DNA from: Discostella pseudostelligera
Taxonomy: Eukaryota; Bacillariophyta; Thalassiosirophyceae; Thalassiosirales; Thalassiosiraceae
Reading direction: 5' to 3'
Assembly (NCBI GenBank): GCA_036940085.1
Contig: JALLBK010000077.1
Span: 1-36,612 of the forward strand
DNA length: 36,612 nucleotides
Below, one piece after another: positions 3,713 to 31,270 of this stretch; the first letter of the stretch is position 1; every line of letters starts with the position of its first letter. Under the pieces are notes generated by a model, which searched no databases, had not been told where the DNA came from, and was given only the letters and a program-made list of their open reading frames with translations. Made by a program: the position numbers and the translations under genes.

Positions 3713-4029
3713 ATTCTGCCTATGGACACGGCCTCAACACTGTTGTTTCCCTCACTGAGGTCGGCCGAGCTGACTTGGTTGTACTACGTAAGATTTCATG
3801 GGTTCTGCTGCGGTTGGTGTGCCGCCCGGGCTGTTCGGAGCCCCAGAAAGCAAGCAGATTGGTCCTACAAATGCAGCAGCGGAGGGTTGTTGTTGGAGTA
3901 GATCTAGATTAGTAGGGTTATTAATTTAGTAGACCAAAAAGAGAATAGAAACAGATCTAATAGTTTGTGGGCTTCATGTACCATAGCCTACTTAGTCATT
4001 GGGAGGGATGCACGTTTTTTGCTCTCAAT

Positions 4030-5448
4030 CTAGTCAAACAAGTCTTGTATGAAGTGTGACACTGGGAAATTCTTACGGTTCGGCAAAACATAGTCCAAGT
4101 CAACTTCATCGACACCTGCCCACTTTGCCAGTGGAAGGAAGACTGCTTCCCAAGAAGTTGTGGGGATTATACGGCCTCTTCCAATATTAAGGGGGGCATT
4201 TTCCTTGATTGCTGGATATGTTCCAACAATTTGACCTCCACGAACACTTCCACCTGCCATGAAGTAATTCCCACCCCAACCATGATCAGAGCCTGCATTT
4301 CCATTTGGAGCGATGGTGCGGGCAAAGTCAGAAACCTGGATCACTGTCACGGAATCCCATACGTTCTTTGCTTTCATTTCATCCACAAATGCCTTGAGGG
4401 ACGCATCAACGTCGGCAAACAATCTTTCTTGGTTGGCGAGCAATGCATCATGTGTGTCCCCTATTGAGCGAGTGGTATCGGTGTGAGAATAAGGGCAAAA
4501 AGAGAGAGGTGCATAGAAAGTTCAGTTCACTACTTACACCCGCCAGTCTCCAAGTAAAAGAAATCAGCATCACTCCGACGGACAGAGCGAGAATCAATCA
4601 TTTTTGCTACCATACTCAACTGCCTTCCGAAGCCACTTGTGGGGAATGAAATTTGTGTGGTCTTGCCTGCTAGCGTGTCAAACATGATTTTGTTTTTGGA
4701 GAGGCTCGTCATCAGTGCGTCTGAATACCATTCTGCAAAAACACCAGATTCGGATTTAGTTCCCCCATTGAGCAAGCTGATTGTGCTCTCCATACCACTG
4801 GTTGACTGTGCCTGATTGAATGGAGTGACGCCGGCATCACTTAGAATCACAGGCGACGACGAGGATGTCTTCCCGATTAGGGATATCGAGTTCACATTCA
4901 GTGAAAATGCACCCGCAACACGACCTTTCTTTGTTAGGACATCTTTGATCCTCCCGAGGACGCCCGTGCCATCCTGCGCTTTGAGAGGATCTATTTTCTG
5001 TGCTGCTAGCTGCATGAAATTGTGCGCAAAAAGCTGTGTTTTGGTATCTCTCCAATAATTTTCCTTGTTTGTTTCCTTGGTCAAATCGCCAGCATTTGCT
5101 GTCAATATAATTGGAAAGGTTGATCAGCGATGAAACATATTAGGCACCTGTAGGCATCAACAATAAGATTGAGCTCTTACCGAAGAATAGCAGATCACCG
5201 TCATTGAACAGTTTCTGAGCAGTTTCAAACTTTGGATGGACCGCAAATGTTTCACATGCTTGATTGGTGGTAGTCCTGTTCAGCACTTTCAAAGTAACCC
5301 GGTTAAGGGCAACTTCCTGGCGAAGATCCAAATATTCGTCCCAGAGTGTTGTGTTGTCAGTTTTGATAGAGCACGTGTAAGGAACCAACATGTTGAAAGA
5401 GTCACAGCCTCCACCGAACAAAACGTAAACAATTGCCTTGTATGTGTT
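4030..5448 (-). other. DUF1501 domain at the C-terminus
   Basis: Residues about 3705-4123, exons 26-28. It opens with YKAIVYVLFGGGCDSFNM and carries GGWDTH (split between exons 27 and 28), VIQVSDFARTIAPNG, NAGSDHGWGGNYFMAGG and RGRIIPTTSWEAV, the characteristic DUF1501 string. The family is, as far as I recall, placed with alkaline-phosphatase/sulfatase-like folds, in which Asp and His of such motifs bind metal; enzyme activity here is inference. The domain ends normally at a TAG stop. Confidence 0.92.
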
Positions 5449-8400
5449 GTTCGACATTGGCGGTGGTGCAGGCACTACCCTCTCTAGCCCGGTCTTAAGG
5501 ACGAGGTTTGTGGTATGGAACTCGGGAGTAGTTAAAATGAGTTGCTGGGAAAGTTATATAAGAGAAAAAAGTCAAGCACCAGTAATAACTGACAGCGCAA
5601 AGGATGAAACAGAAATGACACACCTGGGCAACACGAAGTGCAGCACCTGCGGGGTCCATGATGGATGTTTGGTTTAGTTTTGAGATGTATGCATCTTTTA
5701 TCAGTCGCTTATTGTCAGTGCTGAGCCTCCCACTTGTGAGAATTGTTGAGAGTTCTCCAACAACACTTTCAGCCTGGTCTTGTGGAGTAGTGGTGGCTTT
5801 AATGTACGGCCTCGAGAAGGAGAGACGGGCAGATGCGCGAGAGAAATCGCCTTCGATGCAATTTGTCCCCACCGCTCCGACACCCCCATAACATGTACTC
5901 AATCCAAATTTCACCATGGAGAACATGCCGTTAAGGAGACCGACTGAATTTGTTCAGTTATTTGAAACGTCAAATTGATTAGATCATTTTTGTTTTATAA
6001 ACAGAAAGCGAACAGTTTCTTACCAATTTTGGGCATATCCATGAGCATTGCTTCAGGAGCTACTAGTGTCGCATCTCTTGGACGGCCACCCGGAACATAT
6101 TCAGGTAGCATGAACGAAAATACACTGCGGAAACTGTGCGCCATCATGCCGATTTTGTAGTCTAAGTCAAGCAACTTTACAACAGGTTGGCCAGCAGATA
6201 ATTGAAGCTCCATTCCTCTCATGAGCGCCATCAGTCTGAGCAAAGGCTCGCGAAGATTCCCCTTGAAGGGATCGGCATCAAGCTGAACAGATCTCGCTTC
6301 TGGGTCGAGCAAGACTGCGGCGATAGTTGCAGCAAGATCGCCATATTTGCTGGGTGAAACAGAATGTAAAAAGTGGGGATGAAACTCAGTACCTGTGCTA
6401 CAAGGCAAGGAATTAATAACAAAGAATTACAGGAGAAATCACTTACCCTTTGCCAATTCCTTCGTAACTGCCAGTGCGGAATGCTGTCGCAACAGCTTTG
6501 ACGTATCGAGGCTTCGGATTGGATGTCGTGAACCGTTGAATCAACCGGAAGGCAATAAATGGAGCTGTATTGGTATGGTAAAAGTAGTGATCAAGAGCGG
6601 CCTCTGTTTCATACTGAGCATCTCTCACAGTTGCCTACGGTGAGGGAAGGATGGTAAGAAATAAAGTGGAATAAGATCATATGGCGGTACTTGAAAGAAA
6701 AACTGTTGAAATAGTTACGCGGCCAACTCACTTCGGTGTTTAGGACTGACATGAAACTTGGTGCATTACGGAAGGCGTAAGTGCTTGCTCCTTGAATAGC
6801 GACTGTCGAGCGGATGTTTCTGAGGCGGAACAGACGACCCACATTATCTATCACCTCAAACACAGTATTTTTGTCGAAGGCCCCGCTGCTAGTTACCAGG
6901 TAGGCGGTGACACCATTGACTGTAGTATGAGGAAGGTAAGTTCCTTCTGGGTAGGAAGCAGGATCGTATGCCCCAATCGTAAGCTTTGACAAGACTTCCT
7001 CTACACTTCTTGGCATTTTGTTGAAGACTAAAGATTCAGATACAGCTATGGAACAGAGACAACCGCCTGTGTCGAGGGTTTCACAAGCGTTGTTTCCACA
7101 TGAATTTCCGGCCATTACATCATTGTTGTTCGTTGGATAGTCGTTGTCCCAATACACTTTGAAATAGTTCCTGTTGTCGTCTCGTACGTGAGGGTGCAAA
7201 CTGGCATACGACTGCAAGGATTTTGGAATTTCAGTTCGTTAGACACGGTAAAGCTCACAACTGACCCAAGGCAGAATCAAGAGTAAAACAAAACGACCTA
7301 CCTCAGGCTTAAACACCAAGGCTACTTGACCAATTGCATTGACCTTAACCTGAATTGCGCAGCTATCGGTGGTCCAGTGAAATCCTTTTTTGTAGGCATC
7401 GATACCCGCAATATCATTAAAATCGCAACTGATCATGCCCATGGCCTTGCAACGGGCATTTGCGGTTGAAAAAGTAACACGCTCTTGGTCGTATAGGTAG
7501 CCAGGAAATCGTTCAGCCTGAAGATCAAAGGTACCTGCGCAGCATGCCTCTGAAGCGTAAGGCAAAAGCGGGTTGGCGCAAGATGATGTCGAATACCTTT
7601 CTTTGTAAATGACCTTCTTTGCGTCGGCATAAAAAGCTTGCTCTACACATGCAGGCCGGACATACTCATAATGAATGCCAGAGCTTGCTTGAACAACACG
7701 CAAGATATCGGCGTCGCATTCTTTTCCTGTGCAGGCAAGATTCTCTTCTAAAGTCACAGTGTTTCTCCATCGGCAATTGCCATTAACGTCTTTTTTGCAA
7801 AGCGCTGACTTCAGAAATGAATTGTCATCTAGGGCGAATTTTCTCAGGGTAAGATCGTTCTTAAACATTTGATCGTCTTCCATCAATTCTGGCATGTGCA
7901 ACGCCCCAAGTAACCGAAAAGTTGCTCCCTTCCTTAGAAATTGTTTCTTGGGAAGGTCGACCTTCAAGAGAAATGCGATAGCAAAAGATCATTATGAGCG
8001 GTTTAGCAGAGTGTGCCTCCGATAGAATACTGACACCTTTGTTAAACTCACACAGAGTGGATAACGATCCCCAATATAACCCCCAGTCATATCCGTCTTG
8101 GGAAATTTATCACGCCAGGGAGCTTGGATTTTCATTGGATCTTGGCGGTTTCCAGACCAAGTGTTCTCTTCTATATTTCCCCGGCCTTGCTGGTAGTCAA
8201 ATCCAGTCCAAATTCTTGCAAAGGACATGATTTCGTCATTAGTATAGGCCAACATGGGCTGTAATTTATCGTCGAGCACTGGAGTGCCATCAGGATGAAG
8301 TTTATACAGTCCAGTTGAAAACAACTGCATGATCTCACGAGCCTGAAAAGGACAGCGATGACAGTTTAGCACAATAGTTGAGCGCCAATAATTGTTGACA

Positions 8401-11400
8401 AAGAACCCACTTACGAAGTTTTCATCTGCAAAGCTTATTGTCTGCTGATTCTCCCACATGTAGGCTGCGCTTTTGCTTTGGAGGAAAGACAAGTTTTCTC
8501 CCATTAGTGGACTGTATGCGATCTCTCGAAGCATATCACGATAATTACCAAACGCATGTCGGACAAAAATGTCATAGTATGTGAGAACTGAGTAGACGGG
8601 GAAAATGAGACAAATGCGGCATGCGTTGAGATATCAATGATAAGGTATTGATCTTGTGATAATGAGATGCAGGAAAGAGGGGCTTACAAGCTTCAGTGTG
8701 AGATCCTTCAACGTCTATGGCGCTACGAGCGATGACAAGAAGCTGAGCAAATGCCCAGGCAACTCTCTGCCGAAGTTGATCAGGCGCTGTGAGGCCAACT
8801 TGTATCCAAGTAAATTCTCGTTGTCTCCAGAGATCCCAGGATGTGTCTCTCCCTGTTGCAACTTCGAATACGTGGCCAACACCTGGGTCATTTGCACTCT
8901 CATAGGGTGAACCGCATAAAATGATTCCGCCTCCTCCAACATTGGTTTCTGCTCCGAAGTATTCCGCCACTTTGGCCAGTCGTACCTCGTTTGGCAAGTC
9001 AACAAACTTAATTTTATCGCCGAATCTGCTCAACTTCGAAAACAGAGGACTGTAGATATCCCAGCGGTGGATAGGGTGAGCCCTCAAAATAGGATTGCTT
9101 GGCTGCGCCGATGCCGGATAAGTGAGGATTGCACTCCGATTTATGTCCATCCACTTTGTAATAGGATGAGAGTGGTTGTTCATCTCAGCAATTATGTTGC
9201 CCGGGTGTGTATTCATCAAAGTCCAGTACGTGAAGTCGTACACAGAAAGACTGATGGCGAAAAAATGAATAGCAAGTGGTGGTGAGATCTTCAGCCTCAT
9301 CGATGAAAAATAAACATAACCGACATAAATTTGTCCTTACTGATCTGGGTGAACGCGTCGAAAGCATTGGGAACGGATGATGATGTCTACTTCCACAAGT
9401 GTGTTGTGATTTGAACTGCAAGACATCCCTGTCAATGGAAATGTAATATCACGCAACAGTGGATTAGCATCAATGGTTGCTCTTTGCTGCAAAAGAGTAG
9501 CAAGAGAAGAATTCGTCTCGGGGCCCATCGGAGTTGGGGTGCATTCACTAGCATTCAATATTTCCCATCGAGATCGTACACCTGGAACACACGGCGATGG
9601 TTGGGTGACATTATCTACATCCCTAAGTGGTAAACCTGCAATGGCATACACATATCTTCCCGTAATGTCATGGAGATCGATTATGTTGGAAGAATTCAGT
9701 TCAATCAGAACCAGTGGTGTACCTGCAGACCCACATGCTGTATTGGAACTGGAGAGAGAGCACTGATCTTCACTGAGGAATGTCCGAGGGGTATTGGCGC
9801 ACTTAGTTTTGTCACCAGTCAGGGACCTAACAAGTCCACCACCATCACTGATATGAGATTCCAGTGTGTTGTCTTCGAGCACTATTCTCGGATCGAATTG
9901 AAGCCAAGAGCCATCAGGCAATTTACCAAATACCGGTGCATCATTTTCCTCGGTCACAGCACTGAGCTGACCACAGAGGGGGTCGTTCAAGCCACCACGA
10001 AGAAGGTACTCCACTCCTTGACTTCGCACTTCATCTATGCGGTCAAGGATACCGGCGGTTACATTTGGAAGATTCAAGAAACTGTTTGGTTGGACTGAGT
10101 CCGGGTAAAATTTTACAAGAGGATTCGGTAGTGCTTGACAGGAGCCATCGGACATGCGAAGGTTGAACCATCCACCAGCCCACTCCTCAGGTCTTGAGCA
10201 CATCAAATATTCCTTGTTCCATTCCAACGGGTACTTGGAGCCGACCTTAAAGGCCAAGGATGTCACGACAGTACGGATGTGACCTGTAGCAGTGACCAGT
10301 GACCAGCAGAGTATTAGCCATAGAGTGTTAGACATGGAGAACACACAAGGCATCGACATTCGAACTCACCGTTCAGCATGATTGTAATGTAGGAGTCAGT
10401 CAAGTTGTTATATTTTGCTTGAAATCGCTGAGGGTTGATAACGCCACTATCCCCTTCCTTAACTGAAAAGGCAAAATTCCTCCATCGAGATAATACACCA
10501 CATGGGTGACCGTTGCGTGCAATTCCGACTGGATTAGTGAGCTGATGAAAACGAAACAGATCAGTTTCAATGGGCGAAGACGAACACCGTGGACAAAAGT
10601 AAGAACCATGTTTACGTACTCGTGGATTCGCGCGCTTCCTGAAATATTCACGGTGGCTAGTTATGTTCGTATTCATTTGATCTATTATCCATTGTTTTGC
10701 AGTTGCCTCTGTGAGAGTGGGGAAGGATGCAAGATCTTTGGCCATGGTACCAAATGTTCCAGTCTCTAACAAACGCGCTACCTTGTCGGCCTCACTAATT
10801 GTGCGGTTATAACTAGTGAGATAGTACTTCCCACTGCCATTCAAACCTGGCAGGGTAATTTGAGAGCCGCTATTAGCGTAGTCGGAAAAGTCTTGGCCGT
10901 ACAGCAACTTCATTGCAAATTCACCAGCAGCCTTCTCCCATGCTCTTCCATCGTAGGACAGTGCCACCGGTGCAATGTTAGATAATTTTCCAGCAGAATC
11001 AGCAACAACTGCCTTCGTGAGAATGCACAAGGAGTTACTCCGAGCCAACATGACAGGTCCGCTGGGAATTTCTGTGGGAATCAACTCCTCATTAGGACAG
11101 AAAGTGAGCGACGAAATAGTTGGCATGGCCGTTGGCTTCAAGATATAGAGCGTGTGTGTTGTTTGAAATGAGAATATAAGCATAAACCAATCATTCATGA
11201 AGTCTTAATAAGAACTGAATGTCAACAAGAAAGATTAACTCACAGAACGAGTTGGTGCTTCAGTTTCGTCAATTATCAACATGTCGGTTTGGCTCGCCGT
11301 TGGTGCGAGAGTAGGTGGTATGGTAGTCCGTTTTGCGATCTGCAAGTCATCAACCACAATGTCCCTGACAGACAACAATTTCGCGGCGACACAATATTAG

Positions 11401-14400
11401 TTTGGAAAGAATGTGATGTGGAACAATTAATGCAATCACACTCACTGCTCCTTGCTGATTTCATTAACATATACCCAGACATTTGAACATGATGACAATT
11501 GATCGTTGACAATGAAGGCCGTAGTAAATTCATTATACGAATCCTTCTGCCATCGGGAAATAGTGTTCCAGAATCTCCACTGAAGATTACTAGTACCGAT
11601 AGTACAGCCTTCTCCATAAATCATGACAGATGGGCAGTTTTTGCCGCTAGTCCACTGGTCGTTGGTATTACAGTCCAAACCAGTTCCAGTTGTTGCATTG
11701 AGCAGACGGAACTTGGCTGAGATCACGTACTCTTCTCCGGTGACAAAGCAACGTTTGTCGAGTGGCTGACGAATTCCACGCCATGAATGATCACGGTTGT
11801 AAGCTCGCAGTGCGAAATCACCGACACCATCGGCACCTGGGCTGTACAATTTAACTTTCAATCTGTCTCTGTCGGTTGTCTGCCAGAATTCGGCACTCCT
11901 ATTTTTGAACGAGGAATTTTCAACGAGGGCATTACACTGGAGGGGGAGATGCTTGATCTGAACATTATCAATAATGACATCATATGACATATCAATGCCA
12001 TCAAAATAAATCTTGGCGAAGTCAGCTCCGGATTGATTGGGGCGTAAAGGCCAAAGTCCGTGAATGTGATACCTGAAGGGAATGACGTGAATCCGCAAGA
12101 TGTGAGTACGTATGAATAAAACAGTGCATCATTTGCAAATAGAAAAGCTCACCACCCATTATCAACATCAGTATCATCAGTAACAATCAATGCAACACGA
12201 TTGTATTCATTAACATTCCCTTTCTTGGTGTACATCCAAAGATCTGAGCATCTGATGCCGCTATCAGACCATGTGAAGGGATTGCACGGTGCTGCAACTC
12301 CACCCTTTTCGAAGCGAATTTTTCCTGAGAACGCCAACCGATCGCCCACTGACATTACAGGAGTGAAAACGGCAAATGAATATGGATTAAAAATGAATTG
12401 AAATTCATGACGCCGATTACACTAAAAAGTACGATAGCGCCACGCAAAGAGGCTTACCCATCCGAACACAGTCCAAGTTGACAATCTAGGTAGAAGGAGA
12501 AAAAATGAGCTTAATCCGAAGACTATTCATTTAACGAATCGGACTTGCATAATCTAAACTCACCTGAGCAGGACCTTGAGAAAGATGAAGGCGCTGAGAC
12601 GCCTTCAACGCTTGTCCTGTTCCCCCATACCCAGTCACCAGGGACAAGGCTACCTCGCCTCCCCACGTATCCCAGTATTTCGTATTGGGCTCTTCGAAAT
12701 CACCATTAAGTAGCAGTTTATTCGGGTCGCACATCATCTGTCGAAAGGACACATTATCTATAATAAAGTCCTGGTTGTCTGGGCTCCGTTCGATTTCAAA
12801 GAAAACACGAACAGCATCAGGAAGACGAAGGATCCCATGAAGAAGGTTGAATCCGCTGGCGTTGTACGGACGAGCAAGGACAGCCTTATCGAAATCTTCC
12901 CACGTGTTCACTAAAAAGATAAATGTTGCGTCAATTTTTTGGTTAGAAGGATGAGACTAGTCAAAGAAATGTCGACAATAAACATCACGAAAAACTCACA
13001 AAATTCTTTGGTTGAAACGTTGCTGTAGCTCCGGCCGTTAATTGTCATGATAGGGGACAAATTTTTATACCATTCTTTGTTTGGGTCGATTGTTTGAATA
13101 ATTGTTGATGGATCGTTTTTGGCTGTGATTTTGATAGGAGCACTAAATTCGTAGTACCTTCCCTTCATGAGCTCGAGGCAACGGCTGTCAATATTCTGCC
13201 CAAGTCCAGTCCAATACGCCTGACGATTGACAGTACCAATGGCATTGGTCCCATCTATCCCGAGGCCATTCCTGACTATGATATCATTTGGGTTGTTCAT
13301 GGTGTGAATCCAAGGTTCCGTACCGAGGATGTTGCTATCTTTGCCTCCGTTTCTGACAAGCTCGACGCACTGCTGCTCATTAATCGCTGGCTTCAGTAGG
13401 GTGACAGAATCGACAGATGCGTACCCAACGCAGTCAGGCGGTTTTTGCCACTTCTCTTCCACGAATTGGGGCCACACAAGGGTGCCATCTTGGTCAATAA
13501 ATTCAGCAGTATATGTACCTGAGGGAAGAGAGGCGGCGAATACTCGGCCAGCATTTGCGTCAGAAAAGTATGCTTTGTTGATTGTTAGAATCGTGCCAGG
13601 GACGTCCATGACTGTTCCAGAGCCAGTATTTTTGATCTGTGTACAAGAATAGAGATCAGTGATGCAATTTATAGACACAAATTCTCATAACATCTCTTTT
13701 GCACTAGAATGGTGGTACTCACCCTGAGCTTCCAATTTTCAGTTCCAAACTGCTCCACTTTAAATGAAAAGGTTCTCAAACATGTATTGGGACAGAATGC
13801 TAAACATTTTCCTAGTGACGAACAGGCCCCTACACCCAATATTTGCTTGACATGGTCATAATCATGAACCAATGATCCACTAGTAGCATTTCCTGTGGGA
13901 TCTAAGCTTCCGTCAACGCTAGTAATCACTAAATTCTTCACGCCAATCTCATCGGATAATTGGCAACCATCCAGAATGATTCCACGACTATCAGTTATCT
14001 TTACTTTCTGGGCGGAGGAAATGTAGTCAAAATGTTTATCTCTCACGTCCGGACTGATTGCGATTGCCTATAATGGTATAGCATTCAAATGAATGTTGGC
14101 ACTCGACGATAGGTATTGCATTAGCTATTAAATATTTCAAGCGCTCACCTCAGTCGATTTGCAATTCGGATACCACTGCTTTTCCTTGTCGAAGCCTGAA
14201 ATATTGACGTTCTTGAGTTGCAGTCCGCGACCCGGGTCCAGTTGCCCTGTTGCCCAAATGGCAGACATCATAACGATACCCTGGTGCCGCCATGAAGGAT
14301 CACCGCAGAGCTTGGTGGAACGAGCGTCAGTGTGATTCTTGAAGGCAGACGAAGAGCCGACGATATCAAAGTCCTCAACCTTGAGACGGTCTGAGACGCG

Positions 14401-17400
14401 TTGCACAAAACCCCACTGGTTGTCGGACAGCTTGCCTCCGCGCCATTCAGATGCCATGACGTCTTACAGCAAGAAAGCATGGAAAGAGTGGTGATGCAAG
14501 AGTAGGTGAGATCAGCACTCTAATCAACAAAAGAGTGAAATAATGCAACAAAACTTACTATACACGGCAATACCAATTTCCCTGTTCCTGTACGCCAGTG
14601 TATTCTCAAAAATTGGAACATTCACAGCATTTCTAAACGCGTAGAATTGCTCATAGTGTTCAAGACGGAATCCTTGCCAGAAATTTGAATGCGCCTACCA
14701 AACAATTAATAATTTCATGCAAAGGACAGTTGAAAGTAATTTCGTTACGGATGACGATCATGTTAGAATGACGGATGCTTGAAGTTGAAAAAAGTTACTT
14801 AGTGTGGCATCGACATTCTTACCCTGTTCGACCGGAATAGGCCCATGGGCTTCTGACGGCAGCTTTTTTTGTCGCCAATGGCGTTGCTGTCCTGAACTTC
14901 ATCTTCGCCGTAAAACGCCCAATGCAAGCTGGCATCAAAACTGAGAAATACAGTTCAAAATAGATTCCATATGATATCAGAGAGATTAGCCACCAGGTCT
15001 TCAGGGGGGAGCGGAGATGTTATCACTGAAAGCGGGAAAGGAAAATAATTACTCACCCTCGTCCGGCACTACCGGCAGCAACATTCCCAACAAAATCGTT
15101 ATGTGAGCTCCTTATGAAGTATGTGGCTCTGTCATGATCAGACTGTCCATTTAACTGCTCGCCCCAGGATATCAAATCGTTTGTCCTAGACCCAAGATTG
15201 TTCAGAACCAAGTTCTTGGTGGCCTCCATACCAATATAGTAACAATGGCCAGCGGTCTCATGAGCAACGTTTGCCTAAAGCCCAAAATTTGCCAGATTGA
15301 ACAAGATCGATGAATAGTGGTTTAGATTGTTCCTCTGCACTCCCAGAGCAACAAAACAGAATAAATAAAATCATTTATCTAACTCACGGCGATGGTGGCA
15401 TTAGACACACCGTCCATCGAAATGCAACGATGCGCAGAGTAGCGGATTGAATTGCGGCTGATGGAAGTGCCCTTCACGTCACGCGTGTACAGGAACTGAA
15501 TGGGGAACCGATTTTTGAACCCTTGCTGTCCCATATTTGTCAGTTCCACACCCTCAATTACTTGAGCGACTCTGGGCGTATGAAAAACTTGCAGATAGCC
15601 CCCCCTGCACATGGGCACATTGCAAAGCTCCCACTGCTTGGCCGGGTCAGTGGTAAAGCACCATGCTTTTTCCTGCCCACCAGGGTTGCGGCAGTAGTTG
15701 TGGTCACCAAGGCCAGCATCTGGGTAATTCTGTGGAGTTCGCGAGTGAGACCAGGGCGTCTGCGCCGTCCACTTTTGACAAGTACGCCCAGAAACAGTTT
15801 GAGCGATATTGCCACGGTAATCTGCTTGCTTGATGCGGTCGGTACCACACTGACTAATGAGGGTCTCTCCCTCGATCTTGATGTTCCGTGTGAGCAAGGC
15901 GACTTCGACACCCATTCCTGGAGTTTCCTTCTCACTCAGCACTGCATCAATACCAGTGTTGAGCTTAATGATCGAACTGCCGTCGTCTCTAGCTTGGATA
16001 GAAGTGATGATAGAATCTTGAGAGTCGCGCCAGTGAAGTGTCGACGATGTAATATGAACATCAGAATTTGCCGCCCAGCGGGAAACGGCGGTACCATTAA
16101 CTATTATTCCCTCGGCGGGCTGATGAAAAGAAAAGCTGATGTGTAAGTACAGCACCGAATACCGACGATCCTGGACAGGGTGGTAAAATGACTTCATACA
16201 CTCACCCCGCTCACGAATTTGATACTAATGTCATCAAAATCAATCACTGCCCGATTAGTCGCATCCTCATTCTCAGTGAGCACCTCCCAACGCGTGTCTA
16301 CCAAACTCGCAATCTCCTCACCAACCAAAAGGGGGGCCCCGCATGTCGTCCAATCATTGGATTGCGTCATTTCTGGACATTGCAGTATCGCAATGTAGGC
16401 GTAGTCCCCGGTGGGCTTACGACCCGAGAGCCGGACAATGAGCTTCATCTTGCCCGAGGTGTATGACTGCAACCGTGCGCGGAGGCTGGTGGTGTACATA
16501 TGGCCTTTTACGAAGCACTCCTGGTTGGGGCGGAATTGCAGCGAGAAAGACGAGCCGCGGGCCCTGGTGCGGTAGAATCTATTGACCTTGCCGGCGTAGT
16601 CAGTCTCCTCGAGGATAAGGGGATTATATCGCCAGGGCTCGGCAGATATAAAGGGGAAGTGTGCATGGCCATTACCGTCGTTGTCACTGGCGTCACCGTT
16701 GACTACTAGATCGGCACAGGCATTGCCCGTCGCCGCAAAGCTCTTGGAGGATGGCAATTCAAATACAAATTCATCCATCGATATCACAGCACCTATCGGG
16801 AATCTATCCAGGATGAAGATATTCGCGATGACATTGGTCAGGTCATCGCCAGTCCACGTCCAGGTTGTCGAGAACCAAAACCATTCAGAATATCGCCCAA
16901 TGGTGCCGCGCTGAATGTACTGCTCGTAAATTCTGTCGCCTCCCGCGGAACGAAGAATCTTGCGATAAATACGGGGGCAGTTGTTGCCGCTGGCTTCACA
17001 ATCGGTCATGGTGCCCGAGATGCTGCCTTTGAGGTCTATCTTCAGCCTTAAGGTGACCAAGTAGGTTGCATTAGCAATGAGCGGACATTCGCTTGCAATG
17101 TCGCTATGATGTATTGAGTAAGAAGGGATGCACATACATTGAAAGATGTTGAGGGGCGAGTGTGAAGATAAGTAAAAATCGAGGCCTACAACATAAAAGA
17201 ACATACATCTGGACTTCAACCATCCGACAAGAGTCAGAGAGAGACAAAATAACTGACCTAAAGTCCAATTTGAAGCCCTGCCAGTTCGTACGCAAGTCTT
17301 TCAATACGATGGTGCCATTCACTTGTTCTATGATCTTTCCTTCTCCTCCACTCCAAACTCTGTAATTCACCGACGTATCAAAGTTGTCACTAACCAACTT

Positions 17401-18924
17401 GCGTGGACATTGCAAGCGCTCTCCCCCAGTGTTGGGGATCAGCGCCAGTGGCGGAGCAAGAGCCATACTCTCCTTGCCGGGGACGGACGAAAGCGTCACA
17501 TTTGGCTGTGCTGCCACCGCCATTTCCAGCATCGGCGTCCATGTCTCGATGGGTCCACCCTCGTTGAGGCTTCCGGTCCATCCACGAACATTCAGTTGTC
17601 CTCCGGCAACCAAGAATGGCTTGACACCCGCATTGAATGTCCCACCCACGACGTTGGCATTGGAATCCGCTGGTACGAACGTAACATCCGTATCGCCCGT
17701 CAAAATGAACTTCATACTGGTATTATTCTTCGATATCGGATTGGTATCGCTCATCTCCAGCACTCCCTGCACGAACACGTACTTCGTAAGCAAGGTAGAT
17801 TTGTAATTGGGCGGGATGTAGAGCTTGCCTCTAATGTCCAACCCTCCGATGGCAATGGGTGTTGAAGTGCTCAGGTCGTACGTGTAGCACTTTCCGCAGG
17901 GTACTGTCACGGCGGCTGAACCGGAGAGCAACGACGAGAGCTTGTTGGCGGAGCAGTCAGCCGTGGCGATGTTGACATTGCAAGCGAGAGGATTGAAGAG
18001 GCCGATTGGGGCGGTGTTGATTCCCTGCGATACCTGCAGGTGACGGCGATCGTGACTCTGCCGAATGTCGTCGTTGACGATGCCGCCTCGGTTGCGGTTG
18101 AGCTTTCGAGCATCCGACTCTTCCTTGGTGGAGAAAATGTTCAGCTTTGCGACGGCCAGCAATTCCTCCTTGTCCTCACCCGTCGTCTCACCCGTCGTCA
18201 ATGATCCCTCGTCCTCAAAGACAAGGAGTTGTTCATCGACCGGGTACTCGATAAGCTCGCTCTCCTCGACACCCGTCCTCGGAAAGAAGTCCCAAACGAC
18301 GGGTGTGTCCATAATCATGCTTTCGGGGGGGACTATCTCGCCATCGCCATTACTGGGGATGGTAAAACTAAAAGCATCTCCCTCCGTTACCTGCGACGTC
18401 ACTGTAGTAATGACCGGGTTGAATCCTCCACCTTCCATGGAGGTGTCCGTGATGTTGATGCCAAAGCTCTCCAGTATGGCGGGGGCGGCCTGGTCGGCGG
18501 CAGCGGTTACATCAACCGTGATGACCAGAGAGTCTAGCGGCGCTGGGTCGGACTTGTGGTTCTTTCCCGACTCGATGGCATCCTTGGGAATGTCCACACC
18601 AACTCCGACTGTCTCGGCATCTTGCAATTGCGCGATGACATCGGGCGGGAGATTCTTGGGCGGCTCGCAGCAGTCCGACGGACCTTGGGCAACTTGTGCT
18701 GCTTCGCCACTTTGGTTCTCCTTCTCCTCCACGCCTTCACCAGCATGGTCACCTAGACGTTGCTTCTGGCGATGCTTCGGCTGCCCCTTTTTGACGATGC
18801 CACCGCCTGCGTGCGACACCGTTGCTGCAGCGACGACAATGCCCATCGCAGCCGGGAATGTTCTTACCTGCGGGACGAGGACGAGCCATCTCGCAACAGG
18901 AATGATGATGAAGCAGAGCTTCAT
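4030..18924 (-). CDS. Giant secreted fusion: G8/beta-helix, kringle, CBM-like, DUF1800, DUF1501
   Basis: Exons in coding order: 18924-17258, 17103-16206, 16119-15388, 15274-15057, 14940-14823, 14694-14559, 14462-14149, 14067-13723, 13636-13000, 12910-12564, 12485-12458, 12348-12153, 12072-11446, 11364-11244, 11135-10620, 10541-10370, 10283-9341, 9250-8688, 8587-8415, 8342-8052, 7961-7302, 7211-6732, 6634-6447, 6349-6024, 5943-5624, 5544-5181, 5098-4538, 4460-4030 (TAG). All 27 introns are GT-AG, 72-154 nt, and phases agree throughout: 12,372 nt, 4,123 residues. Residues 1-36 have a hydrophobic signal-like start; 41-315 are acidic and unrecognised; then G8 (about 320-455), beta-helix with inserted CBM-like modules and kringle (to about 1550), CBM-like block (to about 2090), PT linker, DUF1800 (about 2240-3690), DUF1501 (about 3705-4123). 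No later membrane segment is evident, so secretion or wall association is inferred. Function is unknown. Confidence 0.88.
5490..10802 (-). other. DUF1800 region with large insertions
   Basis: Residues about 2240-3690. Family landmarks appear in order: ADKVARLLETGTFGT, VYDFTYWTLMNTHPGN-like strand, LRQRVAWAFAQLLVI, YYDIFVRHAFGNYRDML, REIAYSPLMGENL, AREIMQLFSTGLY, FARIWTGFDY, HTNTAPFIAFRLIQRFTTSN, YGDLAATIAAVLLDPEA, LREPLLRLMALMRG, and a final LRVAQQLILTTPEF. Bacterial DUF1800 proteins are about 450-600 residues. This one is nearly 1,450 because of Cys-rich insertions, chiefly exon 17 (about 315 residues) and exons 21-22 (about 350 residues). The biochemical role of the family is not known. Confidence 0.88.
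11446..13370 (-). other. Block of CBM-like modules
   Basis: Exons 9-13, residues about 1560-2088. Three units start with a Cys and an x-L-x-x-N motif: CVELVRNGGKD (Cys1566), CDPNKLLLNGDFEEP (Cys1749) and CNALVENSSFKNRS (Cys1925). Each continues with an aromatic-rich strand and a second Cys followed by a G-x-x-Y/L strand, like the unit in exon 2. Exon 11 (12485-12458) supplies just 28 nt of the middle unit. They resemble CBM_4_9-type sugar-binding beta-sandwiches. Confidence 0.6.
13415..16119 (-). other. CEMIP/PKHD1L1-like beta-helix region
   Basis: Exons 3-9, residues 856 to about 1550. Segments match the region after G8 in CEMIP and fibrocystin-L: HITSSTLHWRDSQ, VEVALLTRNIKIEG, QVIEGVELTNMGQQG, RFPIQFLYTRDVKG, SRNSIRYSAHRCI, NVAHETAGHCYYI and NVAAGSAGRGF. 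These are turns of a right-handed parallel beta-helix. The region ends with EFIDQDGTLVWPQ, also like the C-terminal part of that family. The kringle is inserted inside it. Confidence 0.82.
15607..15849 (-). other. Kringle domain within the giant gene
   Basis: Residues 946-1026 in exon 3. It has the full kringle signature: YRGNIAQTVSGRTCQKW, NYPDAGLGDHNYCRNPGG, AWCFTTDP, WELCNVPMC. The six cysteines are 946, 969, 998, 1009, 1021 and 1026, the number and spacing needed for the three kringle disulfides. It sits in a loop of the beta-helix between TRNIKIEG and the VELTNMGQQG turn. Kringles are protein-binding modules, best known from animals; here the flanking exon sequence is continuous with algal-type introns on both sides, so it is not contamination. 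Confidence 0.92.
16206..17420 (-). other. Carbohydrate-binding-like modules inserted after G8
   Basis: Residues about 505-850, spanning the end of exon 1 and exon 2. Two beta-sandwich-like units can be seen. The second begins CADLVVNGDAS (Cys685) and has the CFVKGHMYTTSLRARL strand pair typical of CBM_4_9-like modules (xLxxNGDxE start, then Cys-x3-G-x2-Y). The assignment to the CBM_4_9 type is from this pattern, not from a search. A sugar ligand is inferred, not shown. Confidence 0.55.
17517..17967 (-). other. G8 domain within the giant gene
   Basis: Residues about 320-470, all in exon 1. The order VTVPCGKCYTYDLS, GGLDIRGKLYI, VFVQGVLEM, VAGGQLNVRGW follows the G8 pattern of short beta strands with conserved glycines. 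G8 domains (named for eight glycines) occur in CEMIP, TMEM2 and fibrocystin/PKHD1L1, proteins linked to hyaluronan binding or breakdown. In those proteins the strand ending in RGW is followed directly by the GDEIVI-type segment; here a long insertion intervenes before that segment resumes at 16119. Confidence 0.8.
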
Positions 18925-19216
18925 TGTTAACTTGTATGGTCTATGCCACTGTTAGTTGATGATTTGATTGCTTCTGGAGCTGGTTTGGGATGAGAGATAC
19001 AAACGATAATGTTATCGATGTCATGAGCAATGGCACAACAGCAACATGAACATGCATGCCCTCTCCTCCACCCAAACACCAAAAAACGCTCGCTCACCAA
19101 AACCCGATTTTAATGTCACAAAATGACAAATGACCCTTGATCGCAGAATGTCACAACATTCATATCGGGTACCATACTTCATAGCGATTAAACTTCAAGT
19201 TGGGTTCTGTCACCGA
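18925..19216. other. Upstream region of the giant gene
   Basis: About 290 bases between the start codon of the giant gene and the inverted-repeat element. I see no gene. It presumably contains the promoter, but I recognise no specific element. Confidence 0.3.
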
Positions 19217-20257
19217 CTGTCACAGTTATTATGCCACCGGCGGTCAGCTCACTCTAGAGGGTTTTACTGGACATTTCCGACCAGTCGACCGCTTGATCGC
19301 TTCCTTGTTTTTTAGCGAGATACGACATTCTTCGGCCGTTCCTCGAGCGGTCGACTTGAAAGTGGTCGGGTTGGAATTGTGGTCTTACGGCTCAGTCGAT
19401 CGATCGACTGCGCGCCAAAATTCTGGGCTGCTCCGGCCACGTGTAGGCTGTGACTGGGTCGACTTCATCTCACCATGGCGGCCGCTTCCGTCGGCCCGTA
19501 TGAGTGCTATGGCGAGGGCACTACCAAACCAAGCACATCAACGTCATCAAAGAGACATGATCGACACTTGAGCCGCTTGGCTTTGCCTGAGTCTAAGGAA
19601 ATGATCATTTGATGGGCCTTCACGCAGAGACTAGTTCGCGACGGCTACGGCGACGACGATGTTCCGTCATTTTTTCCATGTTGATGGTCGATTTCGCCCC
19701 AACGGATCGCATCACGACGATCTGCATGACATAACCGGAGGGGCAGGTAATTTTCAGGGGCAGGGGGGTGATAGAAGTTGGTAAATAATGAGACACACCT
19801 CATGGAGCGTCGTCGAACCAGCAGCGATGTGAGGAGAGACAACATGCTCTAACATCTACGATAAGTTAAGGAAAACAACTAATCCGATGATAACATACTA
19901 TTGTTCATAGTATTATATGTCTATTGATGCCTTCGGCGAACCCATATCGTCTGAATTGAAGGCGGTATGCCTCTGCCGATTCAGCCGCCATGGAATGGTG
20001 TTGGTGTGGTCTGCGGTCCTGTGGTCTGTGGCGATGAGCGCAGCCAGTCGACTGCAGAAAAGGGCAGTCAAGTCGAACAGAAAGTCGACAAAAATCGGTC
20101 GAGTCTGCCCTTTTCTGCAGTCGACTGGCTGAAATTTGCAAGTCGGCCGCATGTGGAATGACCCGGCTGTCGCAGCATCCGAAATTTTGTGTCACATCGT
20201 TCGACCGACTGAACGAAATGTCCGGTAAAACCACTCTACTGGCGGGGCAAGTGACAG
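19217..20257. mobile_element. Non-autonomous inverted-repeat DNA element
   Basis: The two ends are imperfect inverted copies. The left has CTGTCAC (19217-19223), then a CCACCGGCGG-like stretch, then GTTTTACTGGACATTTC. The right end, read inverted, has CTGTCAC (from 20257), CCCCGCCAG, then GTTTTACCGGACATTTCG, followed by a CAGTCG/GTCGAC motif on both sides. The interior is rich in GTCGAC-type motifs and has no protein I recognise, so this looks like a MITE-like or foldback element of about 1.04 kb. A second CTGTCAC at 19207 makes the left end ambiguous, and I could not define a target-site duplication. Confidence 0.55.
20041..20131. repeat. Perfect 27-bp inverted repeat (hairpin)
   Basis: The arms 20041-20067 and 20105-20131 are exact reverse complements (the left arm begins CAGCCAGTCGACTGCAG). 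They are separated by 37 bases. A single strand would form a long stable stem-loop. It lies inside the inverted-repeat element and may be part of its structure. Confidence 0.9.
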
Positions 20258-23405: not shown

Positions 23406-24596
23406 ATGGTACTGATACGTTCTCTCCCTAGTGCCGCCTCACACAAGATCTATGGTCATCGACATTGCTGCTCTTCAAATCGATTATTTAAGCAGTTAGG
23501 TTTATTTGCCCCTTGTACATTGTTTTCCTCAACCTCAACCCCAGACGGCGACGACCGGCCGCCGTCGCAACCACATCCTGACAATTCGGCAACCATTATT
23601 CAAGGTCCATCGTTACTAGCTTCCACTGGTGTTCATCGACCATCTCCATCACTCTTTCATTTGCCTGGTCTTCGATCATTGCCATTTTGGACAGCTCCTG
23701 ACCACCAGCAGCAGCAGAAGGGACGGGGGCGAATTGCATACAATGATCCAATTGTTACCGCTGCGATACAACATGTCGAGTCTAACTATATCGCCATACG
23801 ATCCGAATATTTCTCGGCGGTACTTGGACAGGGCACTGAGACTACTAACTCAATCCTAATGAACAGTGGTGGTACCATTTCCAAACCGTTGGAGCCAGAT
23901 TATGATGTGGCTACCCGAGGGGGGGAACATGCCGATGATGCCTTGCATTCGGGAAGTTGGGATTGGCATTCATATATATTAAATGGTGTGAGGAATGAAA
24001 GATTTAGGGAGAAGTGTCCCAAGACTGCTCAAGTTGTGGATGATGTACGTGTGTAAACGCGTTTGCATTGGTCTGGTGTGGTACTTTTATTGAATGAGAT
24101 GTCTCTACTCACATGTTAATCAAATACGTCATCGTGTCAGCTTGACAAGGAACGAATGCTATTCAGAACACCATTTGCCTTTTGCTTCTTTTCTACACTG
24201 CACGGGCAATCATCTATCAAGGCACATTCCGGTCCTATGAATTTGCGCTTACGAATGCATCTACCTCTTATTGTGCCAACGAAAAATCCGCAGGATGACT
24301 CGAGGATGATGCGACCGAGTAGTAGTAGTAGTGATGGTAGTAGTAGTAGTCGTCGGCTGACGACGGGAATACAAGTGGCCGATCAAGTTCGTGAGTGGCA
24401 CGAGGGGTCTGCCATCGTATTAGATGATTCGTATGTGCATGAAGTTTGGAATAACACCGATCAAAGTCGTGTGCTCTTCTTGCTTGATCTATGGCATCCA
24501 GATGTGAGGATGGAGGAGAGGGAAAAGATAGCAAACATGTTCGATTATGCAAGAGGGAAGGGGTGGATTGGTGGAGCAAATAAAACACGCTGGTGA
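23406..24596 (+). CDS. Aspartyl/asparaginyl beta-hydroxylase-like (Asp_Arg_Hydrox) protein
   Basis: Two exons, 23406-24044 and 24141-24596, with a 96-nt GT-AG intron in phase 0; 364 residues. The C-terminal 150 residues match the Fe(II)/2-oxoglutarate aspartyl beta-hydroxylase fold: FCFFSTLHGQSSIKAHSGP, NLRLRMHLPL, IVLDDSYVHEVWN, RVLFLLDLWHPD. His242 and His313 correspond to the two iron ligands of the family, and the RVLFLLDLWHPD strand holds the 2-oxoglutarate-binding Arg. A Ser-rich insertion (about 272-285, from an AGT repeat) interrupts the loop before the second half. The first 100 residues are low complexity and could be a targeting segment; the start chosen is the first ATG in frame. 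The substrate is unknown. Confidence 0.82.
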
Positions 24597-24878: not shown

Positions 24879-27800
24879 TCATCCAAGGGAATAATACCCA
24901 GATCTTGACGTCGTCGATCCAAAGAGGAATGCCTGTCTATTCCGCTTGCTCCAAAACAGGGCAAATAAGACCACGCCCACGAGAAGAGAACAGCCAACAA
25001 ATATGATCCAAAAGAACGACCTGTCGTCATCGGCTGTAACTGCGTCTTCTCTCGGACTGGTCAGAGTTGTGTATGACATAGTATCGTTGCCGACGTATTT
25101 CGCTCCCAGTAAACCTAGATCGTCTAATTCAATGAGAGCGTGTAGCACTGCAGTGTTTGCTTCGTCTATGATAATGTTATCGCCAAGATCGGCGCCACCC
25201 TCAACTTTGAGAGAGATTGTGCCCTCGACTACTGTGCAATTGTGCGTGATTGAGTTGGAACAGTTGTCTTCAACGAAGGACGAGATTAAAAAGTGAGCCC
25301 AAGAAAAGGAATATGGAATCGGTGACGGGACTGCGCTTACTCACATTGATTGGAAGTGGAATTACCTGACAATGAATACGCTGCAACTCCACGAGGACCC
25401 TTATTTCGACAAGAAATAATTCCATCAGCGAGCTCACTAAGCACAGAGCTTTGAATACGCAAGAGAAGTTCGACACTTGAGATAAGGGTGGTGTCTACCT
25501 CACAAAAGTATGGAATATCGATCAGTCGGTATGGATCTTGAGACTCTACTCCCGAGTTGCACCGGACTTCAGTCTCAAAGTAGGATGTATCATTAATCGA
25601 CGGTGACAGCGTGACAACACTGTTACCTGAATTAGATGTGGGAATGCTTGTCACCGGACTAGAGGGTCGACCGGACTGAGGCTTACGTGTACTCGATCGC
25701 TTATACGTGGGCTTACTCGTCGGCTTTCGAGACACTCGTAACGTGGGATTGACAGTTGCTGGCTTGCCTTTAGTTGGACTGCTTGTTGTCAAGGTGGTGG
25801 GCTTTCTGGATACGACTGTCGGTGGTTCTGACTTTGATATTGGGGCTAATGATGATCCAATAGTTGGCTTCGATGTCGGCTGAGGCGATCGAGTTGAAGG
25901 CCTGGCGGTGGAAACGATTGTCGGCAGTTTTGTTGGACGCGCAGTTGCAATCGGTGTCGAGGCGAGCGTAGGTAAACTTGTTAATAGCACAGTGGTTGAT
26001 GGCAGCTGTGACTTCGATGGACTCCTGGTAGGCGGTGAGGGAGATGGTTTGTCGGTGGTTCCATTTGAAGTGGGGACGGTGGTCGGTAATGATATTTGCA
26101 TTGATGGTATTGAAGTCGGTCGCGGTGACATTGAACTAGGGGTTGGAAGCAAAGAGGTCGTCGTGGAGGTGGGTTTAAGAGATACAATCGGTAATTGAGT
26201 TGGCGGCTTCGTTGACGGCATAGATGAAGGTTTATTGGTTTGCAGCTGATTTGACGGTGCTACTGTTGCTTCAATTGTTGGTTTCGATGTCGGCTGCGGC
26301 GAACGAGTTGTAGGGCTGATGGTTGATGGCGGTTGTGATTTTGTTGGACTTCTGGTTGACGGTGGTTGAGATGGTTTGCTGGTGATTTTCATTGATGTGG
26401 GAATGGCGGTCGCTTTGGTTGTTTGCATTGATGGTATTGAAGTCGGTTGCGGTGACGTTGAACTAAAGGTTGGAGGCATAGATGTTGTAGCGGTAGGTTC
26501 AACAGATGCTATAGACGGCATAGATGAAGGTTTATTGGTTTGCAGCTGATTTGACGGTGCTACTGTTGTTTCAATATTTGGCTTTGGTGTCGGCTGCGGC
26601 GAACGAGTTGTTGGGCTGATGGTTGATGGCGGCTGTGACTTCGAAGGAGTTCTGGTTGGCGGTGAGTGAGATGGTTCGCTTGTGGTTCCATTTGAAGTGG
26701 GAACGGCGGTTGGTTGGTTTGTTTGCATTGATGGTATTTTTGTCGGTTGCGGTAACATTGAACTAAAGGTTGGAGGCATAGATGTTGTAGCGGTAGGTTC
26801 AACAGATGCTATCGGTAATTGAGTTGGAACTTTTGTCGATGGCATAGATGAAGGTTTATTGGTTTGCAGCTGATTTGACGGTGCTGATGTTGCTTCAATG
26901 GTTGGCTTCGATGTTGGCTGCGGCGAACGAGTTGTAGGTCTAACGGTTGATGGCGGCTGTGACTTTGTTGGACTTCTGGTTGGCGGTGAGGGAGATGGTT
27001 TGTTGGTGGTTCCATTTGAAGTGGGGACGGTGGTCGGTAATGATATTTGCATTGATGGTATTTTTGTCGGTTGCGGTGACATTGAACTAGGGGTTGGAAG
27101 CATAGATGTTGTAGCGGTAGGTTTAACAGATGCTATCGGTAATTGAGTTGGCCGTTTCGTCGACAGCAGAGATGAAGGTTTATTGGTTTGCAGCTGATTT
27201 GACGGTGCTGATGTTGCTTCAATATTTGGCTTCGATGTTGGCTTCGGCGAACGTGTTGTAGGGCTGATGGTTGATGGCGGTTGTGATTTCGTTGGACTTC
27301 TGGTTGGCGGTGGTTGAGATGGTTTGCTGGTAGTTGCACTCACTGTCGGGAAATGTGTTGGCTCAGACTTGCTGCTCTTGTTTGAGCTTCTCGTTGACTT
27401 CGACGACTTGCTTGATGCGGTAGGCGGATGAGGTGACGTAGGTTTACTGGTATAGATTGATGGCGACACTGACGGCTGTGGTTGTGGTTGCTTCTGCGTT
27501 GGCTTATTCGATGATGTTGTCGGTGGTTGAATCAATGTCGGTTTGGAAGTGAACTCAATAGACGGCAGGCGTGATGGTAATGGTCGAATGGTAGGATTCG
27601 CCGTCGGATTGGATTTATGCTCAGACTTGCTGCTCTTGCTTGACTTTCTCGTCGACTTTGAAGATTTACTAAATACAGCCGGCAGGTGCGGTGACGAAGG
27701 TTCACTGGGTTGAGTAGGCTGTGGTTGTGGTTGAGTAGTCATATTGGGCTTGTCCGTCCGCTCCAATGTCGGTTTGGAAGTGAACTTAAAAGTGGGTGGG

Positions 27801-28216
27801 CGTGATGGCGATGGTAGAATGGAATGATTCGCCGTCGGGTTGGATGAATGAAATAGTGTTGGCTTAGTGGCGGACTTGTTACTCTTGCTTGCATTGGAAC
27901 TTTTCGATGCCGACGAAAATGGGCTACTGGTATATGAAGGCTCTGTTGGCGCAGTCGGTGGTTGTATTACTGTTACCGGCTTAGATGAGATCTCTTCGCA
28001 ATTTGGCTTCTGTGATGGTGATGATGGAACAGTTGTATACGATGTCGGTTGTGAATTCTGCATCGTTCCAAAAGCTTTGGCCGACTTTGGAAAGAATGGC
28101 AACCCGTTCGTCCGCGTATGCATAGGGGACGGCTCCAATGGCTCTGCAGAGTGCAACGGAAGCCTCCGACTACCGGCATATGGTAGGAACAAGGCGAGAA
28201 TAAATAGGAAGTTCAT
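24879..28216 (-). CDS. PT-repeat single-pass membrane protein
   Basis: Exons 28216-25345 and 25267-24879 (TGA), with a 77-nt GT-AG intron in phase 1; 1,086 residues. MNFLFILALFLPYAG is a clear signal peptide. Residues about 30-820 are Pro/Thr/Ser-rich with SKSSKS blocks and four tandem 108-residue repeats. Then comes an ectodomain of about 150 residues with five cysteines (VRCNSG, IPYFCEV, IISC, YNCSN, THNCTVVEG). A membrane helix follows (FFWIIFVGCSLLVGVVLFAL) with a short basic-start tail. The PT region is probably heavily O-glycosylated and holds the domain away from the membrane. Its closest relative is the divergent gene at 28557. The family is not one I can name. Confidence 0.85.
25990..27300 (-). 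repeat. Tandem 324-bp PT repeat, four copies
   Basis: Landmark GGTTGATGGC(G/A)G(C/T)TGTGA recurs near 27269, 26945, 26622, 26320 and 25994. The spacing is 324, 324, about 300 and about 327 bases. Each unit encodes 108 residues with the landmarks TTRSPQPTSKP, SNQLQTNKPSS, PSMQ and PPTRSP. The third copy has lost 24 bases (eight codons) after NKPSSMPS. High similarity between copies points to recent unequal exchange. Confidence 0.85.
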
Positions 28217-28556
28217 TTGTTGGATGTGGGATGATAGATGCTATCGAGTTTGGGTCCATTGAAGTCGGTATTAGGAGTACTCCTAGGTTGTAGGATCCGA
28301 AACATTGCAATTGGTGGAGAAGGGCCACATCTCCACTTCTCTTCGGCGTAAGTGAAGATGTTGTGGCGGCGGCGGGAGGAACCGTGGGAGCCGTTTGTGC
28401 AAGATCGTACTATTCCTACGTAGGTAGATAAGTAGGCTGCCTCACCCCTCGGCGATTTTTGATTTTTTGCAGCGCAGCTCCTCCTTCTCTCCAATTATTG
28501 TTGGAACCTTTGCACTTGCTGAACCGAGATCATCTTTCATCCGCTATCTTACAACC
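28217..28556. promoter_or_regulatory. Shared divergent promoter region of the paralog pair
   Basis: The two start codons (28216 on -, 28557 on +) are 340 bases apart and point away from each other. This interval must hold both 5' leaders and promoters. It includes a palindromic CTACGTAG near 28420 and an ATTGG (inverted CCAAT) near 28311; whether these are used is not known. Confidence 0.5.
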
Positions 28557-30439: not shown

Positions 30440-31270
30440 CTAACGAAACATCCCCTCATTCTTCTTACTCTCCCTATCCATCAAATCAATCGGCCTCAAT
30501 ATATTACTCTTATTCGTTTCCACCACATATCCATTCATTACCATCTCATCCAATAAGAAATGCACTTGCTCCAATTGGTACATAATGTCCAATTCACATA
30601 TAGATCCGGCCCATCGATCCATGGTCTCGACGAGACAGTGAATGAATTCCAGTAAGCCTAATTCGTTTTCGTGATTTTCGACATAGGCCTTGTCGTAGCG
30701 TCCTTGTTTCCCACCTGCTCCTCCACTACTATCGGATGATGACGACGACGGCTTCTTCTTTGCCGAACTACTAGCAATAGACTTGCGCAAATCCACATCG
30801 GCCTTGGTCCCCACAATAAAAAACAAACTAGCATATCGTCGATAGATTACCTTGTATCCCCGATATTGGACAAAGCTACACTGCAATTCAGATCGGCTCA
30901 TGCATTTACGAATTATTTCTGATTCGAGGGCTACGCGTTCTTGCATGTCAAGCCATTCGTAGTAGGAGGAGAGGCGGGTTTGGCCTTGTTTGTTGCTAAT
31001 TATGGTTGTTGTCATGGGGGTAGGAGAATGTGGGCAAAGATATTATGTTGTGGGGGTTGGGGGGGATGGGAAATAATGAAAGAAAGCGAGACGAATAAAT
31101 GGTGAGAGGCACATCAGTGTTGATTGGGACGAATTATCACACGAAGACGACGAAACCATAACGATGACAGAGTGTGGGGAGAGCGGGGGGAGCAGTATAT
31201 CCAACAAAAGCGTCGTCCAGCGAGCGAGAGGAGTGAGAGACACTTACACCATTAATATGAACGAGATCAT
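30440..31270 (-). CDS. AP4S1: AP-4 complex sigma subunit (clathrin adaptor small chain)
   Basis: Exons 31270-31248 and 30995-30440, with a 252-nt intron (donor GTAAGT, phase 2); 192 residues. The 23-nt first exon gives MISFILMV, which joined to NKQGQTRLSSYYEW reproduces the canonical start of AP sigma subunits. An ATG at 31013-31015 would give a non-matching N-terminus and lies in the intron. Family landmarks follow: SRSELQCSFVQYRGYKVIYR, YASLFFIVG, LLEFIHCLVETMDRW, CELDIMYQLEQVHFLLDEM and GYVVETNKSNIL. The SRS..QCSF and VETN features favour AP-4 over AP-1/2/3. A Ser/Lys/Gly-rich loop of about 48 residues (about 72-120) is inserted after FIVG; the usual length is about 144. The protein acts in TGN-to-endosome vesicle sorting. 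Confidence 0.9.

Follow-up and report, generated by a model that had tools for sequence, protein, structure and literature searches.

The minus strand of the 36,612-nucleotide stretch of DNA analysed here (the window) carries a single gene of 28 exons and 27 introns, whose 4,123-residue product joins a sugar-binding half to a half made of DUF1800 and DUF1501. In our opinion it is practically certain that this is one gene and that it belongs to a conserved family; this diatom protein family is real and apparently so far undescribed. We also think it quite probable, judging from sequence comparison, that the DUF half goes back to a bacterial gene pair that was later fused. Our proposal that the product would be a wall-anchored, polysaccharide-modifying hydrolase is more tentative, and we place it slightly below even. 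As to the explanation as a whole, namely a fused bacterial pair within a secreted, wall-anchored mosaic hydrolase of a diatom, we are evenly divided.

One gene

The gene was modelled by self-trained dynamic programming, run on 3800-19600. The coordinates of the original prediction set this region, and its exon list was not used in building the model. Unguided, the model recovered the ends 18924 and 4030 and 25 introns; correcting three uncertain stretches against the homologue P0001 gave 27. Intron 1 was set to 154 nt, which yields a higher alignment score with P0001 and a product of 4,123 residues. In all, the unguided model accounts for 22 of the 27 introns; the remaining five (introns 1, 10, 11, 15 and 21) were picked with the help of P0001. 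Every intron is GT-AG and 72-154 nt long, and 25 of the 27 would, if retained, cause a frameshift or a stop. The original prediction of 28 exons, 27 such introns and 4,123 residues is thus reproduced by the unguided model together with the P0001 correction.

P0001 is informative in its own right. Its 4,319 amino acids fill a contig of 13,243 nt, hence it has no introns of note. The window protein aligns with it end to end (2,592 identical of 4,078 aligned residues, 64%), and 25 of the 27 exon junctions are free of gaps; the remaining two lie on either side of a 28-nt micro-exon, with a one-residue gap common to both. The junction at intron 14 (11243-11136) falls in a Pro/Thr linker. One may object that two adjacent genes were falsely joined here, or that the DUF half is a bacterial contaminant. 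Indeed the halves differ in domain ancestry, and there are proteins with the N half only (P0096) as well as diatom proteins with the C half and no N half (P0039, for example). However, intronless relatives continue across the join, as P0001 and P0008 do in contradiction of this objection, and 13 introns of the window gene lie inside the DUF half. We consider the objection very improbable indeed. That the modules form one gene rather than separate genes had been claimed from the sequence at the outset, and the alignment of the intronless P0001 across all 27 joins bears this out.

Table 1. Features of the gene, in positions of the window
Feature	Position	Strand	Remarks
Whole gene	4030..18924	-	28 exons, 27 GT-AG introns, 4,123 residues
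N-terminus, aa 1-40, hydrophobic, signal-peptide-like	18805..18924	-	hydropathy > 1.7 only at aa 2
Low-complexity charged stretch, aa 41-299	18028..18804	-	near its end R-H-L (aa 294-296), shortly before G8
G8-like domain, aa 336-448	17581..17919	-	18.3 bits, under the Pfam cut-off of 22.9 in the window copy
Kringle, aa 954-1026, N-terminal to the CEMIP beta-helix match	15607..15825	-	Pfam 79.7 bits, cut-off 34.3, E 2e-22; six Cys present (946, 969, 998, 1009, 1021, 1026)
CEMIP beta-helix match (CEMIP_beta-hel), aa 1028-1220	14668..15603	-	Pfam 104 bits, cut-off 27.3, E 1.2e-29
CBM_4_9 match, aa 1752-1800	12576..12722	-	Pfam, E 1.4e-9
Exon 11, 28-nt micro-exon	12458..12485	-	position set with the help of P0001
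Intron 14, separates sugar-binding half from DUF half	11136..11243	-	present in the unguided model; junction gap-free against P0001
DUF1800 (PF08811), about aa 2805-3690	5491..8853	-	Pfam 166.2 bits, gathering score 26.1, E 1.9e-48; two stretches around a Cys-rich insert; ends mapped onto the final model
DUF1501 (PF07394), aa 3707-4068	4198..5442	-	Pfam 108.3 bits, gathering score 27, E 6.5e-31; fold inferred from relative P0044

Domains and the origin of the N half

The domains in Table 1 come from a Pfam scan run in two pieces on the first, 25-intron model. G8, weak in the window copy, is over the cut-off in the relatives P0095 and P0096 and matches at E <= 0.01 in 6 of the 11 members scanned, all 11 of which have CBM_4_9 somewhere. 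About 580 residues, the kringle among them, separate the G8 and CEMIP beta-helix matches. This arrangement resembles CEMIP and TMEM2, where a G8-like region is likewise followed by the beta-helix with other domains in between. The window protein differs from them in having CBM-type domains and a kringle and in being fused to DUF1800-DUF1501; for a lectin-like domain of the TMEM2 kind it gives no Pfam match at E <= 0.1.

The N half had been called animal-type, and we disagree with this designation. One of 14 control genomes has both G8 and the CEMIP beta-helix, and it is that of a bacterium, Deinobacterium chartae; hence these two domains are not animal markers. The kringle is a sporadic insert and not a fixed part of the family. 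It occurs in 2 of the 11 members scanned by Pfam (P0001 and P0009), and of the 12 sequences that could be anchored here, out of 17 tried with the window among them, no others than the window and P0001 have it at the window's position. The family appears to have two separate sites of kringle insertion. The only named animal among the retrieved rows is a sea urchin protein, P0098, with 58% identity over 6% of the query, the kringle region being covered. The kringle of P0009 lies inside the DUF1800 part, at about aa 3333.

Distribution of the family

Homologue searches returned 26 proteins (first search), 73 (DUF half) and 6 (N half), 99 distinct ones overall. The DUF-half and N-half searches scored only the 7,987 and 7,994 candidates that had most words in common with the query and were of bounded length, a preselection that proteins with DUF1501 alone might escape, and the queries for the set of 73 covered both domains, which biases it towards proteins with both. 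The span from G8 to DUF1501 is found in 12 of the 99, as judged by BLAST coverage of the window regions rather than by Pfam in each. Among the 12 are an MMETSP ORF labelled complete and two named gene models of Cyclotella cryptica, CCRYP_005584 and CCRYP_018076 (P0003 and P0005), which run from G8 to DUF1501 like the window protein at 55% identity and, unlike it, have no kringle. The suggestion that diatom homologues may exist was correct.

Eukaryotic proteins with DUF1800 have named sources in Cyclotella, Thalassiosira, Skeletonema, Ditylum, Odontella, Fragilaria, Epithemia, Seminavis and Asterionellopsis, all of them diatoms. Since every named source of the fused proteins is a diatom, we call these proteins eukaryotic; the named bacteria among the retrieved proteins have DUF1800 alone. 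Three further, paralogous DUF1800 + DUF1501 genes are present in the window's genome (L021-L023, on contigs C674, C209 and C508), where the CEMIP beta-helix turned up on the window's contig only.

The open-licence literature that we searched, including the available text of PMC5122149, PMC7563939, PMC3597751, PMC10206443, PMC5525289 and PMC10328945, holds no description of the protein or of the DUF1800-DUF1501 fusion. To this extent the statement that no described protein with such a domain order is known still stands; the architecture is nevertheless not an isolated one, given the 12 proteins that share it. The same literature reports no function for the secreted bacterial domains DUF1800 and DUF1501. 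PMC7563939 names DUF1800 as one of the terms enriched among genes that are upregulated in Emiliania huxleyi, a haptophyte (2 of 10 genes).

A bacterial gene pair and its probable fusion

We scanned bacterial and archaeal genomes with a query covering both domains and ranked the loci by it. In all of the best 80 of 569 loci a DUF1800 ORF is followed directly, and with no change of strand, by one for DUF1501, which, given such a query, is a biased estimate of how often the genes pair; an ORF with both domains was found in none of these 80. The original view that this half is of bacterial type agrees with these adjacent genes of the same order. Among the retrieved proteins, all 68 with DUF1501 have it fused to DUF1800, always with DUF1800 first (here, too, the queries covered both domains). 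This natural fusion suggests that the two act as one unit. The bacterial pair (PF08811, PF07394) has both domains of the window protein in identical order, and differs in being two genes instead of one frame; in addition, the Cys-rich insert splits DUF1800 of the window.

Bacterial DUF1501 has a twin-arginine-like start, an apparent export signal, in 79 of 82 cases, which agrees with PMC5122149. At 30 of the best 80 of 569 loci the pair is followed within 300 nt by a gene of one cluster, which was built by single linkage and may include other genes. All eight members scanned match the F5/8 type C domain, seven of them over the cut-off (the L101 match is under the curated one), and two also have PA14 and GLEYA. 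The fused C. cryptica protein P0005 has F5/8-C as well, and some fused proteins carry domains that we take to be F5/8-C, C-type lectin or ricin-type. The pair is thus accompanied by sugar-binding modules in both settings, and the modules adjoining DUF1800-DUF1501 hint at the substrate of the pair.

In both domain trees a branch has the sampled fused rows on one side and bacteria on the other. The DUF1501 tree compares 27 of the 68 retrieved domains, together with that of the window, to the 52 best of the 82 bacterial ones (51 rows after locus merging). The DUF1800 tree, made by a quick method, sets the window and 23 retrieved fused proteins against 45 locus rows and 6 DUF1800-only proteins, three of the latter named as bacterial. 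As the trees are unrooted, the direction of transfer is our inference. The scenario that we favour is that an ancestral alga gained the bacterial DUF1800 + DUF1501 gene pair, whose two genes were fused into a single frame. In the subgroup of the window, the fused pair would then have been placed behind the G8/CEMIP beta-helix with its CBM_4_9-type sugar-binding domains, and some members would have gained a kringle. A nuclear gene for a secreted mosaic protein, in a diatom close to Cyclotella, would be the result.

Possible function

The protein would enter the secretory path and undergo R-X-L cleavage as in other diatom silica-associated proteins. Of 14 G8-to-DUF1800 members, 13 have the motif no more than 30 residues ahead of G8 (P0014 is the exception). 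Its chance occurrence, estimated by shuffling, is 0.09 to 0.52 per protein across these 14, which are related to each other, and the motif was spotted before it was counted, the pattern used to locate the start of G8 having been devised after inspection of the sequences. Four further proteins are outside the 14: P0096, which has no R-X-L; P0094 and P0095, both partial, which do have it; and P0097, for which anchoring failed. Diatom silica proteins have a processing tag of this kind, a resemblance that is suggestive only. Like silaffins and silicanin-1, the window protein may have a signal-like N-terminus (by hydropathy only) followed by a stretch ending in R-X-L; a silica location of the window protein is hypothetical. 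If R-X-L does point to the diatom wall, transformable diatoms could be used for probing both domains and the organic finishing of the wall.

The beta-helix and the sugar-binding domains would hold the protein in the wall or in the wall's organic coat. There DUF1501, as a putative metal-dependent hydrolase of the alkaline phosphatase (AP) superfamily, would remove or transfer phosphate or sulfate esters on wall polysaccharide, with DUF1800 as its partner. Modelled in the relative P0044, DUF1501 has a fold like that of AP-superfamily hydrolases, and the window's domain probably has the same core fold. DUF1800 matched no solved structure. D3720, S3721, R3747, H3819, D3982, H3984, R4028, D4039 and H4040 are nearly invariant in the family. 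The likeness to the superfamily, which includes nucleotide pyrophosphatases and sulfatases, thus consists of the fold and of a conserved Asp/His-rich set.

There are also differences, among them a sequence identity of about 10%. Enzymes of the superfamily usually have a Ser, Thr or Cys nucleophile. At the likely place of the nucleophile, as read off secondary structure rather than from a superposition, the window has H3775, and His is found there in 64 of the 68 retrieved fused and 72 of the 82 bacterial rows. Catalysis by DUF1501 may, to judge from this residue, be altered or lost. The formylglycine signature of sulfatases, C/S-x-P-x-R, is absent from the window's DUF1501; at any place in the domain, it occurs in 5 of the 68 fused domains retrieved and in 2 of the 82 from bacteria.

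It could be argued that the protein is a structural or adhesive component of the wall with no catalysis, in which DUF1501, like every other module, functions in binding and cross-linking. The sugar-binding modules, the 79 cysteines, the Pro/Thr linker and the Pro/Thr/Ser-rich C-terminal tail of P0001 would all suit such a role, as would the precedent of TMEM2, the solved CEMIP relative and a beta-helix protein, for which PMC10206443 reports that hyaluronidase activity was not found. On the contrary, the Asp/His/Arg set of DUF1501 is at or near 100% of rows in bacteria and fused proteins together, and pure scaffolds seldom need such conservation. We regard the structural role as unlikely, although deserving more weight than a role linked to chitin.

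In the latter, the pair would aid chitin synthesis or export, as has been proposed for some bacterial chitin-synthase operons: DUF1800 and DUF1501 genes adjoin bacterial chitin synthase genes according to PMC5122149. Four contigs of the window's genome have chitin-synthase-like matches. However, a chitin-synthase-like ORF was found in none of the best 80 of 569 loci (E <= 1e-3, two diatom queries, at most 6 kb on each side), and the DUF fusion is also present in the pennate diatoms Fragilaria, Epithemia and Seminavis, which are not known to make chitin fibres like those of Thalassiosirales. In our opinion the link to chitin is improbable.

Returning to the hydrolase that we prefer, a wider and frankly speculative reading, which we doubt more than we believe, is that algae adopted a widespread bacterial surface-polysaccharide machine (DUF1800, DUF1501 and a discoidin-type binder) as a fused cassette and incorporated it into the diatom wall. 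DUF1501 might then stand for AP-superfamily enzymes of a new, wall-bound class, editing charged polysaccharide at silica deposition, and the DUF1800 fold might be new among solved structures.

Other features of the window

Elsewhere in the window, two long stop-to-stop frames on the minus strand (25340-28240 and 32067-35471; 967 and 1,135 aa) give no Pfam match at E <= 0.01. Open frames with recognizable domains are a transposase-like one at 593-1231 on the plus strand (DDE_Tnp_4, 8.7e-12), one with an aspartyl/asparaginyl beta-hydroxylase domain at 24120-24593 on the plus strand (1.1e-28) and one with a clathrin adaptor small chain domain at 30443-31042 on the minus strand (2.2e-34).
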